Shown here one piece after another: positions 23,062 to 29,702 of a stretch of DNA of 64,000 bases. Source of the DNA: Paraburkholderia sp. Tr-20389 (GTDB lineage: Bacteria > Pseudomonadota > Gammaproteobacteria > Burkholderiales > Burkholderiaceae); contig NZ_JAAGPD010000018.1 of NCBI RefSeq assembly GCF_017104565.1, positions 62,001 through 126,000 of the forward strand, in the 5' to 3' direction. The notes beneath the pieces were generated by a model. That model was not told where the DNA came from. It made no database searches and saw only the letters and a program-made list of their open reading frames with translations. The position numbers and the translations under genes are program-made. The stretch's first letter is position 1. Each line of letters opens with the position of its first letter.

Positions 23062-24234
23062 ATGCGTACCCAAGTCGGCATCATTGGCGCTGGTCCTGCT
23101 GGACTGCTTCTCTCCCATCTTCTTCATCTGCAGGGTATCGATTCAGTCGTGCTCGAATCGCGCAGCCGCGAGCAGATCGAATCGACGATCCGCGCTGGCG
23201 TGCTCGAGCAGGGCACCATGGATCTGCTCACGGAAACCGGTGTAGGCGAGCGGATGAGAGCGGAAGGTGCGCTGCATCACGGGTTCGAACTCGCATTCGA
23301 AGGCAAGCGCCGCCGCATCGATCTCACCGACCTCACGGGCAAATCGATCACGGTCTACGCGCAGCACGAAGTCATCAAGGATCTGGTCGCCGCGCGCGTG
23401 GCGGCGCAAGGCGCATTGTATTTCGGCGTGTCGGATGTCTCGCTGCACGATATCGACGGCACGACGCCGACTATCCGCTATCGCCATCAAGGCGAAGCGC
23501 ATGAGTTGCAATGCGATTTCATCATCGGCTGCGACGGCTCGCAGGGCATTTCACGCAACGCGATTCCCGAAGCACTGCGCCGCGATTATCAGCGTGTTTA
23601 TCCGTTCGGCTGGTTCGGCATTCTGGCCGAAGCGCCGCCGAGTTCCGACGAATTGATCTATGCGCGTCACGAGCGCGGCTTTGCGCTGGTCAGCACGCGC
23701 TCGCCTAACGTGCAGCGCATGTACTTCCAATGCGATCCGAAGGACAACGTCGACAACTGGTCCGACGATCGCATCTGGGCGGAAATGCACGCACGCGTCG
23801 ATTCGGATGAAGGTCACAAGGTGGTAGAAGGCAAGATCTTCCAGAAGAACATCGTCGGCATGCGCAGTTTCGTATCGACGACGATGCAACACGGCCGTCT
23901 GTTCCTCGCCGGTGATGCAGCGCATATCGTGCCGCCCACGGGCGCCAAGGGTTTGAATCTCGCCGTTTCCGACGTGCGCATTTTGTCCGATGCATTGCGC
24001 GCGTTCTACAAGGAAGATCGCAGCGATCAGCTGGAACGCTATAGCGAAACGGCGCTCAAGCGCATCTGGCGTGCAGAGCATTTCTCGTACTGGATGACCC
24101 GCATGATGCACCGACTCGACGATGCATCGCCATTCGAGCAGCAATTGCAGGTTGCGGAACTCGAGCACGTGACAACATCGCGCAGCGCGGCGATTTCGAT
24201 GGCCGAGAACTATGTGGGTGCGGTCGCGGTTTAA
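23062..24234 (+). CDS. pobA: 4-Hydroxybenzoate 3-monooxygenase
   Basis: A 390-residue flavoprotein hydroxylase that turns 4-hydroxybenzoate into protocatechuate with NAD(P)H and O2. It has the FAD fingerprint [13 protein letters not shown] (residues 8-20), the DG motif IGCDGSQG near 156, and the second FAD motif [20 protein letters not shown] near 283. These and the length match Pseudomonas PobA closely. ATG 23062 follows CAGGAGAC. The PobR-like regulator gene converges on it with 20 bases between stops, and a putative alicyclic-acid cluster lies just beyond. Confidence 0.95.
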
Positions 24235-24254
24235 GGCTTAAGCTTTAAGACGCT

Positions 24255-25148
24255 TCAGTTCAAAGACAGATCGGTGTGCGCGGCGGCCTGAAATTCTTTG
24301 GGCGTCGCGCCCGTCTGCTTGCGGAAATAGCGGCTGAAATAAGCCGCATCCTCGAAGCCCAGCGCATGCGCGATCTGCTTGATCGTCAGGCCTGAATAGA
24401 CGAGATCGCGCTGTGCTTCGCGTATCAGATGTTCATTCACTAGCGACATCGGCGAATGGCCGAGTTCGTCGCGGCAAATGCGGCTCAATTGAGCCGTCGT
24501 GATGCCCAGTTTCTCCGCATAGAACTCAACGGGACGATGCTCGCGAAAGTGTGCGGCGACCAGTTCACGAAAGCGCTTGATCTGCCCGCTGCGGCGGTCG
24601 GCGACGGCGCTCGTCGCGGACATTGCCGCCGCGTCGCTCAATCGCGACACTTGCACGAAAAGTGCAATCATCAATGACATCCCCGCTGCGATATGACCGC
24701 GTGCATTGCCGCGGTATTCCTGTTCGAGCAGCGTGAAGAGCGGCATCAATGTGTCGTCACCCGCCGACGCTCTCACGGGAATTACGCCTGCACGCTGAAT
24801 CACAGGCAGCAGACCGGGCGACACTGCCTTCGAAATCGATTCAAGCGCGCGCTGCGCAGCCGTGATGACAAGCCCGTCGATGTCGGGCGAAAACACGAAC
24901 CCATGCACGGTTTGCGCGGGCAAAACGACGACGCAGGGCGGCGAGAGCGCGTGTTTCTCGCTCTCGATCACGACATGCCCGCTGCCGCTGCGTATGTACA
25001 GAATCTGCAAGAGCGCGTCGTGCCGATGCGCGGCGATATGCCAGTCATTCGGCCGGCTGCGTTCGGCAATCCACTCGAAATTGAACGCGTCGAACCAGGG
25101 CGGGCGCGCGGATTCGCCGTACAGATCGTAGTTAGGGATTTTCCTCAT
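24255..25148 (-). CDS. pobR: AraC-family regulator, PobR/HpaA-like
   Basis: A 297-residue activator. The N-terminal half is a cupin-like ligand domain (IPNYDLYGE, WHIAAHRHDALLQILYI, VHGFVFS), the pattern seen in regulators of 4-hydroxybenzoate and 4-hydroxyphenylacetate catabolism. The C-terminal ~95 residues hold the two AraC helix-turn-helix motifs (ITTAQLSRICRDELGHSP, and IAHALGFEDAAYFSRYFRKQTGATP). I take ATG 25148, preceded by AGGAG; the frame stays open far upstream but without family resemblance. It diverges from the SDR gene with 145 bases between starts, so it may control both pobA and the SDR operon. Confidence 0.85.
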   Translation of the reverse strand: MRKIPNYDLYGESARPPWFDAFNFEWIAERSRPNDWHIAAHRHDALLQILYIRSGSGHVVIESEKHALSPPCVVVLPAQTVHGFVFSPDIDGLVITAAQRALESISKAVSPGLLPVIQRAGVIPVRASAGDDTLMPLFTLLEQEYRGNARGHIAAGMSLMIALFVQVSRLSDAAAMSATSAVADRRSGQIKRFRELVAAHFREHRPVEFYAEKLGITTAQLSRICRDELGHSPMSLVNEHLIREAQRDLVYSGLTIKQIAHALGFEDAAYFSRYFRKQTGATPKEFQAAAHTDLSLN

Positions 25149-25293
25149 GCCGTTTCGTCTCCTGTGTACGGATTGTCCTGCGATGCGTGCTCTTTGTCCA
25201 ATCCAGGCACACCGTGCGTCCCTATACTTTTCTCCATGAATCGCGCGATCGTACCGATGAATCGCCGATCGGAATGAAGACATGGAGATTGGG

Positions 25294-27917: not shown

Positions 27918-27928
27918 AGGACCGCATC

Positions 27929-28267
27929 ATGAGCAGCACCCAACCCTTTGTCGATCACCGCATTTATACGATCCGGCCGCGTGGCATGAACGAGTTCATC
28001 GAGGTATTCGATCGTCTCGCGATGCCGATTCAGTTGAAGTATCTCGGTGCACCCGTCGGTTTCTATATGAGCGATATCGGCGCATTGAATCAGGTCGTGC
28101 ATCTGTGGGGCTACGAAAGCATTGCCGATTACGACCATCGCCGCACCGCGCGCGATGCAGACCCGGAATGGCCTGCGTATTTGCAGGCGTCCGCGCATCT
28201 GATCGTCGCGCAGGAAAGCCGGATTATCCGGCGCGTCGAATTCAGAAGCCTCACTGCGCTGCGCTAG
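27929..28267 (+). CDS. NIPSNAP-family protein
   Basis: A 112-residue protein of the dimeric alpha/beta-barrel NIPSNAP family (VDHRIYTIRPRGMNEFIEVFD at the start, VVHLWGYESIADYDHRRTARDADPEW in the middle). It begins 11 bases after the flavoprotein stop and clearly belongs to the same operon. Bacterial NIPSNAP proteins often accompany catabolic clusters but few have a known reaction; it could be an isomerase or binding protein for a ring intermediate. Confidence 0.85.
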   Translation: MSSTQPFVDHRIYTIRPRGMNEFIEVFDRLAMPIQLKYLGAPVGFYMSDIGALNQVVHLWGYESIADYDHRRTARDADPEWPAYLQASAHLIVAQESRIIRRVEFRSLTALR

Positions 28268-28337
28268 AAAAATAGAAACAGCCAGCGCTATCACAAACAT
28301 ATGGAGACGTAGCACCCGCGTATCAAGGAGACACGCA

Positions 28338-29702
28338 ATGAGCCAGCACAAACGTACAGTCGATGTGCAGAGTTTCATCGACGGCGAACGCTTTTCGCCT
28401 TTTCAATGGACGATTCTTGTCCTCTGTTTTCTGGTTGTCGCTGCCGATGGCTTCGACACGGCTGCGGTCGGTTTCATCGCGCCTTCGCTGGTGCAGGACT
28501 GGGGCGTTGCGCGTTCGGCACTCGGGCCTGTGATGAGCGCCGCTCTCGTCGGCCTCGGGATCGGCGCATTGGCCGCCGGGCCGTTTGCCGATCGCATCGG
28601 GCGCAAAACGGTGCTGGTTTTGTCGGTGTTTTTCTTCGGCGTATGGAGTCTCGCTGCCGCGCATGCGACCTCGATCGAATCGCTTACGGTGCTTCGCTTC
28701 ATGACAGGCCTCGGACTCGGCGCCGCGATGCCCAATGCGGTGACGTTGATGTCCGAATACTCACCGTCGCGCATTCGTGCCGTGGCCGTGAATGCGATGT
28801 TCTGCGGCTTCTCATGCGGACTCGCGATCGGCGGTGTGGCGTCGGCGTGGCTCATTCCGCACTTCGGCTGGCAGAGCGTGCTCGTCGCGGGCGGTATCGG
28901 ACCGATCGCGCTGACGTTCGTGCTCATCGTTCTGCTGCCTGAATCCGCGCAATTCATGGTGACGCGACAACGTGGCGACGCGCGGATCGCTCGCGTTCTT
29001 TCGCGCATCGCCAGGCACACACATCTCGAAGCATGCCGGTTCGTCACCGCGGAGGCCGTCGCCGGGCATCGCGGCTCTGCATTGCGCGTGGTGTTGTCGA
29101 CGCGCTTTCGCTTCGGCACGCTGATGCTGTGGCTCGCGTACTTCATGGGCCTGCTGATCTACTATCTGCTGACCAACTGGCTGCCCACGCTCTTCAAGGA
29201 CACCGGCTTTTCCGGGCAGAACGCTGCGCTGATGACATCGCTGTTTCCACTCGGCGGCATACTCGGCAATCTGAGCGTCGGCTGGTTGATGGACCGCTTC
29301 AAGGCGAATCGCGTGATCGCGTGCACGTATGTCGTCGCGGCCTTGCTGGTGATGCTGGTCGGGCGCGGGATCGGGCATCAGGTCTGGCTCGGCACGTTGA
29401 TCTTCCTGACGGGCACGGTCATCACCTCCGCCGTGACGTCGATGTCCGCGCTGGCGGCGAGTTTCTATCCGACGCAAGGGCGCGCGACGGGTGTCGCATG
29501 GATGCTCGGCGTGGGGCGCATCGGCGGCGTGGCGGGTGCGCTGGTCGGCGCAGCATTGATGGGGTTGGGCTGGCAGTTCGGCTCGGTGTTCAGCCTGCTT
29601 GCCGTACCCGCGATGATCGCCGCATTCGGCGTGTTCGCCATGGCGCGGGGTCCGGGCGCGTCGCACCGCGAAGAAGGAAAACTGACGCCGGCCGTGGAAT
29701 GA
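28338..29702 (+). CDS. Aromatic acid:H+ symporter-type MFS transporter
   Basis: A 454-residue, 12-helix major-facilitator carrier of the AAHS family (PcaK, BenK, MhpT). Helix 1 has the ADGFDTAAVGFIAPSL motif in which the Asp residues are needed for transport in PcaK, and the loop after helix 2 reads GPFADRIGRK. A second copy of this motif is GWLMDRFK after helix 8. ATG 28338 follows AAGGAGAC. As last gene of the SDR-flavoprotein-NIPSNAP operon it should import the carboxylic acid that they metabolise, or 4-hydroxybenzoate. Confidence 0.9.
   Translation: MSQHKRTVDVQSFIDGERFSPFQWTILVLCFLVVAADGFDTAAVGFIAPSLVQDWGVARSALGPVMSAALVGLGIGALAAGPFADRIGRKTVLVLSVFFFGVWSLAAAHATSIESLTVLRFMTGLGLGAAMPNAVTLMSEYSPSRIRAVAVNAMFCGFSCGLAIGGVASAWLIPHFGWQSVLVAGGIGPIALTFVLIVLLPESAQFMVTRQRGDARIARVLSRIARHTHLEACRFVTAEAVAGHRGSALRVVLSTRFRFGTLMLWLAYFMGLLIYYLLTNWLPTLFKDTGFSGQNAALMTSLFPLGGILGNLSVGWLMDRFKANRVIACTYVVAALLVMLVGRGIGHQVWLGTLIFLTGTVITSAVTSMSALAASFYPTQGRATGVAWMLGVGRIGGVAGALVGAALMGLGWQFGSVFSLLAVPAMIAAFGVFAMARGPGASHREEGKLTPAVE

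Follow-up and report, generated by a model that had tools for sequence, protein, structure and literature searches.

In a 64,000-nucleotide stretch of DNA from Paraburkholderia sp. Tr-20389 (hereafter the window, part of a 9.0-Mb genome), an operon encoding a short-chain dehydrogenase/reductase (SDR), a flavoprotein of the 3-ketosteroid delta-1-dehydrogenase (KstD) fold, a NIPSNAP protein and a major facilitator superfamily (MFS) transporter lies next to pobA, the gene of 4-hydroxybenzoate 3-monooxygenase. This locus raises the question of which compound the operon acts on, and whether its product is the substrate of PobA. The answer that we favour, with confidence only a little above even, is that the operon would serve the uptake of an alicyclic, 4-oxygenated carboxylic acid (4-hydroxycyclohexanecarboxylate or its cyclohexene form being the likeliest) and its aromatisation to 4-hydroxybenzoate for PobA. 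The MFS protein would import the acid, the SDR would oxidise the ring hydroxyl to a ketone, the flavoprotein would remove the alpha,beta hydrogens next to this ketone to the point where tautomerisation of the ring yields 4-hydroxybenzoate, and PobA would convert the latter to protocatechuate. The NIPSNAP protein may accelerate this last tautomerisation or else an isomerisation, and a divergently encoded AraC protein would switch the operon on. The basis of this proposal is sequence, namely the gene identities, the conserved order, the catalytic residues, and the linkage and co-occurrence with pobA; from these we infer the substrate, the direction, every catalytic step and the role of the NIPSNAP protein.

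The operon and its conserved gene order

All six genes of the locus are open reading frames (ORFs), and their families were assigned with NCBIfam and Pfam models. The features are as follows:

23062..24234, + strand: pobA, 4-hydroxybenzoate 3-monooxygenase (TIGR02360 540.0 bits, cutoff 538.7; NF006091 628.5, cutoff 351)
24255..25148, - strand: AraC-family regulator, PobR/HpaA type, probably that of the operon itself (157 bits with the HpaA model, cutoff 274.65)
25294..26124, + strand: SDR dehydrogenase, putatively converting a ring hydroxyl to a ketone (PRK07231 subfamily 223.5 bits, cutoff 215)
26154..27917, + strand: KstD-fold FAD desaturase, ChcC2-like (by NCBIfam scores and catalytic residues)
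27929..28267, + strand: NIPSNAP protein (PF07978 98.9 bits, Pfam only)
28338..29702, + strand: aromatic-acid/H+ symport family MFS transporter (PcaK 524 bits, cutoff 770; TIGR00895 395.7, cutoff 418.55)
22949-22965 (TATC-N9-GATA) and 22980-22996 (TATT-N9-GATA), no strand: putative pobA operator, a motif found upstream of pobA genes and not expected near the AraC/SDR gap
25172..25200, no strand: putative AraC site, direct repeat TTGTCC-N15-TTGTCC, conserved in AraC/SDR gaps

An earlier, sequence-only reading of this DNA had described the four-gene operon and an AraC gene diverging from it, and both were borne out, the former by the open frames and their families and the latter by the strands; pobA and the AraC gene are convergent. 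The same reading had placed the operon beside pobR as well as pobA. The pobA gene is there, whereas a separate pobR is not: besides the AraC gene, no second regulator gene was found between pobA and the operon, so that the two regulators of that reading are at most one gene.

Our counts of loci refer to the best 80 of 247 related loci, and to 14 plasmid loci which were treated separately. The order AraC (divergent), SDR, flavoprotein, NIPSNAP was observed in 63 of the 80 loci, with the MFS gene downstream in 49 of these 63, and the NIPSNAP gene directly followed the flavoprotein gene in 74/80. Such a conserved order is more than chance. The plasmid loci were looser in order, with NIPSNAP genes in 12 and AraC genes in 9 of the 14, and in Comamonadaceae the flavoprotein and NIPSNAP genes occurred without AraC and SDR genes, adjoining other oxygenase-type genes. 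The nearest named relatives of the window flavoprotein come from Paraburkholderia and Burkholderia. A second SDR gene, considered as a constant part of the cluster, was rejected, being confined to 18 of the 63 loci with all four genes.

The flavoprotein and its partner proteins

The best NCBIfam model for the window flavoprotein was PRK06134 (734.8 bits, cutoff 747), whose name gives no function, followed by PRK12839 (642 bits), ChcC2 (571 bits, cutoff 900), PRK12843 (555 bits) and ChcC1 (347 bits, cutoff 1000). ChcC2, the best-scoring model with a function in its name (4-oxocyclohex-2-enecarboxylate 5-dehydrogenase), represents the enzyme of the second desaturation in the cyclohexanecarboxylate pathway of Sinomonas. 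The KstD-named models gave 449.5 (PRK12844), 425 and 376 bits against cutoffs of 789, 788 and 793, none of which was reached. The flavoproteins of eight other loci scored 528-575 bits with ChcC2 versus 433-493 with PRK12844. The solved KstDs, used as controls, had the opposite preference: 7p18 scored 565 bits with PRK12844 versus 349 with ChcC2, and 8joj scored 448 bits with PRK12844 and had no ChcC2 match at E 1e-90. A ChcC1 enzyme was sought elsewhere in the genome and among the second flavoproteins of relatives, and these candidates were rejected at 285-342 bits versus the cutoff of 1000 (6/6 tested).

The catalytic residues of KstD, which we take to be Y119, Y318, Y487 and G491 in the numbering of Rhodococcus KstD1, map by alignment to Y125, Y374, Y545 and G549 of the window flavoprotein, and all four were invariant in 38/38 homologs with 70-88% identity. 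The retention of KstD residues, as claimed in the sequence-only reading, thus stood for the four catalytic positions; the GPYYALK segment named there is not among them.

The window SDR contains the motifs TGAAGGIG at 20, NNAG at 97 and YSPGK at 163. It scored 184 bits with the ChcB2 model, below its cutoff of 350, and the ChcB1 model was absent among the matches listed for it. For the MFS protein, PcaK was the nearest model, also below cutoff. In the NIPSNAP protein, 13 residues were invariant across 83 homologs, among them R11, Y13, N54, H58, Q95 and E96, a pattern that would suit an enzyme better than a scaffold. Solved bacterial NIPSNAP relatives carry no function name; we propose that the protein is a tautomerase or isomerase. 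It could be that a single ChcC2-type desaturase introduces both double bonds, or takes the cyclohexene acid as its starting compound, and works with NIPSNAP as a ring tautomerase in a widespread proteobacterial route, versus the two desaturases of actinobacteria; we put this forward tentatively, as a rather doubtful extension of the proposal.

A possible first step of the route was indicated by a relative. On a plasmid of Paraburkholderia sp. FT54, a fusion gene stands directly before the AraC, SDR, flavoprotein and NIPSNAP genes. It is one ORF of 929 residues (L133:4261-7050) in which a BenC-like ferredoxin/FAD/NAD reductase is fused to an FCD domain, known as an effector domain from GntR regulators, and to a cytochrome P450. 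A P450 is the type of enzyme with which the known aromatisation route begins.

Co-occurrence with pobA and regulation

Genomes were searched for pobA with TIGR02360 at E 1e-60, those of L011, L020 and L076 being left out. The gene was found in 47/48 and 25/25 searched genomes with the flavoprotein, that is in 63/64 distinct genomes, the lone genome without it being a 3.5-Mb Oxalobacteraceae metagenome-assembled genome; the curated TIGR02360 cutoff was exceeded in 32/48 and 11/25. Large Burkholderiaceae genomes mostly have pobA, and therefore the family of Thauera propionica offers a fairer test. Among its 121 genomes, the flavoprotein was present in 4, pobA in 19 and both in 4, so that pobA occurred in 4/4 genomes with the flavoprotein versus 15/117 without it (Fisher p 0.0005). 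For the order, the corresponding values were 3/3 versus 44/297 (p 0.004), with pobA in 47/300 genomes as the order-wide background.

Within the fetched stretches, pobA was linked to the cluster in 22 of the 80 genome loci and 3 of the 14 plasmid loci. The linked genes differ in orientation and type, and were found in Paraburkholderia, the Burkholderia ambifaria group, Haematobacter massiliensis, Cupriavidus necator N-1 and C. metallidurans CH34; that of Pseudomonas sp. BN417 is 53% identical to the window pobA, and in Derxia lacustris pobA lies about 8 kb away. In a quickly built tree of 92 flavoproteins, the linkage changes 7 times, gain and loss not being separable and short contigs possibly hiding cases. 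The genome of Tr-20389 also contains a second pobA (G000:C13:8351-9550, L089), which is 59% identical to that of the window and stands beside a LysR gene, followed by pcaI, pcaJ, pcaB and pcaD.

The direct repeat TTGTCC-N15-TTGTCC was found in exact form in 43 of 66 AraC/SDR gaps, with one mismatch in 7, two in 7 and three in 9; shuffled gaps matched with at most two mismatches in 26/1300 cases. Upstream of the cluster-linked pobA genes, no such repeat was found at up to two mismatches in 26/26 rows (20 distinct), and these regions carry TATC-N9-GATA in its place. Because the repeat is conserved in the AraC/SDR gap and lacking upstream of pobA, the AraC protein is probably the regulator of the SDR operon, and we conclude that pobA would answer to a regulator other than the window AraC. 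Control of pobA by this AraC protein thus appears unlikely, for want of a shared site. There was no sign of a wider AraC regulon either: a longer form of the pattern matched the genome 102 times at up to three mismatches versus 98 times in the reversed control, and its one exact match was the site in the AraC/SDR gap. The window AraC belongs to the same family as the PobR (AraC type) and HpaA regulators, and over 285 residues it shares 36.8% identity with the AraC protein encoded divergently from pobA in Derxia lacustris, so that an effector resembling 4-hydroxybenzoate is plausible. The window AraC differs from these regulators in that its gene is convergent with pobA and its predicted site is found at the SDR operon only.

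All 36 rows with a pobA of at least 79% identity have a perfect TATC-N9-GATA motif upstream of this gene; they represent 25 distinct genes, of which 5 are not beside the cluster. This operator is common to the pobA genes of Paraburkholderia, Caballeronia and the Burkholderia ambifaria group; its cognate regulator was not found. The operator of the window pobA is the same as that of the lone pobA in Caballeronia genomes which have the cluster elsewhere, and pobA would therefore be an old gene that the cluster adjoins, outside its operon.

Alternative substrates and known systems

Several results weigh against an aromatising role of the operon. No P450 signature was found in the window, and the P450s of its own genome are distant, only 32-34% like that of FT54; the organism may therefore enter the route at the hydroxy or oxo acid. 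A ChcC1-like desaturase was not found in this genome, the best score (347/1000 bits) coming from the window flavoprotein itself. Neither the ChcC2 cutoff (571/900) nor that of ChcB2 was reached by the window proteins. Sister flavoproteins outside the cluster also lean to ChcC2 over the KstD model (521/472 bits for the window genome's own paralog on contig 32, 518/409 for Derxia, 509/444 for Azotobacter), while PRK12843-type flavoproteins do not (412/422, 409/461 and 419/428), and the lean therefore marks a branch, not a substrate. Large Burkholderiaceae genomes that lack the cluster commonly have pobA too; genome size and relatedness therefore confound the count of 63/64, and in 58 of the 80 loci no pobA is nearby, some of these loci being cut off by contig ends. 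Finally, the fetched stretches of L039, L049, L083, L135, L137 and L139 include aroE-like (shikimate dehydrogenase) genes, which makes 3/80 genome loci and 3/14 plasmid loci.

These aroE-like genes could indicate that the natural substrate is not a cyclohexanecarboxylate but a polyhydroxylated ring acid resembling shikimate or quinate, such as a dihydroxycyclohexanecarboxylate, which would be converted to protocatechuate or 4-hydroxybenzoate. In line with this, L137 and L139 encode a TIM-barrel plus HPPD-like protein, presumably a QuiC-type dehydroshikimate dehydratase, and on contig 32 the genome's own flavoprotein paralogs are close to an aroE-like ORF, which was assigned by its start residues only and matched no NCBIfam model at E 1e-45. 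We nevertheless judge such a substrate unlikely, though a real contender. In L039, L049 and L137 the aroE gene is accompanied by a second flavoprotein, of the PRK12843 type, so that one island may hold two alicyclic-acid pathways side by side; moreover, protocatechuate made directly would need no 4-hydroxybenzoate hydroxylase. Alternatively, the operon may be unrelated to 4-hydroxybenzoate, with pobA nearby by descent and a flavoprotein that either uses a different ring ketone or is an enone reductase. The differing putative operators of pobA and the operon, the lone pobA genes with the same operator, and the Comamonadaceae loci would all fit this explanation, which we also hold to be improbable: the linkage changes 7 times on the tree and involves three differing pobA types on both strands, and the flavoprotein co-occurs with pobA in the Thauera propionica family, where pobA is scarce.

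A further alternative, in which the flavoprotein would be a genuine 3-ketosteroid delta-1-dehydrogenase or use some other polycyclic ketone, appears to us very improbable, even though all KstD catalytic residues are kept and KstD 7p18 is its best solved relative (E 4.6e-95). The KstD-named models, preferred over ChcC2 by the solved KstDs, stayed at or below 449 bits versus cutoffs of 788-793, and in a tree of 52 flavoproteins the two KstDs stood on long branches apart from the cluster flavoprotein, their rows being long and their placement unsure. A phylogeny joining the flavoprotein with true steroid dehydrogenases, named in the sequence-only reading as evidence that would speak against it, was thus not obtained, and a steroid dehydrogenase identity was rejected on profile scores and tree. 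A PcaK-like transporter and a PobR/HpaA-like regulator adjoin the flavoprotein, and no steroid context was seen near the cluster by eye among the ORFs of 18-36 kb. Relative to 7p18, 8joj and 4c3x, the flavoprotein therefore shares the fold family and the four catalytic residues, but differs in preferred models, branch and context. The route to 4-hydroxybenzoate by an SDR and a KstD-fold desaturase, as the sequence-only reading had proposed, remains plausible: the residues, the ChcC2 score, the pobA linkage and co-occurrence and the FT54 fusion argue for it, whereas the lack of a ChcC1-like enzyme and the ChcC2 lean of the sister branch argue against it.

The chc cluster of Sinomonas (Corynebacterium) cyclohexanicum ATCC 51369 reportedly has the gene order chcC1XTC2B1B2R-AaAbAc. 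Like it, the window cluster brings together a hydroxyl dehydrogenase, a KstD-fold desaturase of the ChcC2 side, a transporter and a regulator, and its product would be 4-hydroxybenzoate for PobA. Unlike it, the window has neither a ChcC1-like desaturase nor a P450, encodes one SDR, an AraC regulator and a NIPSNAP protein, and scores well below the cutoffs of the Sinomonas models. The cluster would thus be a variant of the known aromatisation route with an apparently smaller and partly different gene set. In the available parts of PMC9795900, where the aerobic route is credited to Yamamoto et al. 2021, cyclohexanecarboxylate is converted to the 4-hydroxy acid, the 4-oxo acid and 4-hydroxybenzoate by a P450, a dehydrogenation and two consecutive desaturases, and its hosts include Pseudomonas and Alcaligenes. 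Portions of PMC5906575 connect the route with pobA. As far as the corresponding excerpts go, Cupriavidus gilardii uses a CoA-type route (PMC4547698), and Cupriavidus necator has a cyclohexanecarboxylate-inducible BadR system that is not the present cluster (PMC7057948). Judging by titles cited in PMC9795900, PMC5906575 and PMC4547698, physiological descriptions of Gram-negative bacteria that aromatise cyclohexanecarboxylates are decades old. Our literature search, mostly without subscription papers, revealed no paper on the present gene set and no proteobacterial gene assignment for aromatisation.

Upstream of pobA, at 19688-22443, the window encodes molybdopterin-binding and 2Fe-2S subunits of a xanthine-dehydrogenase-type enzyme; these were rejected as part of the system, since just two of the 80 loci, L009 and L010, have such genes beside the cluster. 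A VirJ-domain protein (PF06057, 288.6 bits) is encoded at 17586-19022. The region 29737-36556 contains ABC transporter genes, including one for a family 5 solute-binding protein, together with genes for a D-ala-D-ala dipeptidase (Peptidase_M15) and for an RpiR-like regulator, the latter without a Pfam match at E 1e-10, and is perhaps devoted to peptidoglycan dipeptides. In Xenophilus, a flavoprotein gene (L065:12087-13697) directly follows the NIPSNAP gene; its best NCBIfam model is the pentalenolactone D synthase PtlE (293 bits, cutoff 1100), and the protein is probably a Baeyer-Villiger type enzyme.

For Paraburkholderia, Caballeronia, Pseudomonas, Azotobacter and others, the cluster provides testable genes for the aromatisation of cyclohexanecarboxylates, with a bearing on the breakdown of naphthenic acids. 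It also offers a biochemical context for NIPSNAP proteins. To our knowledge, no bacterial member has so far been given an enzymatic role, and a route with one desaturase and a NIPSNAP protein as ring tautomerase, if true, would provide the first such role.

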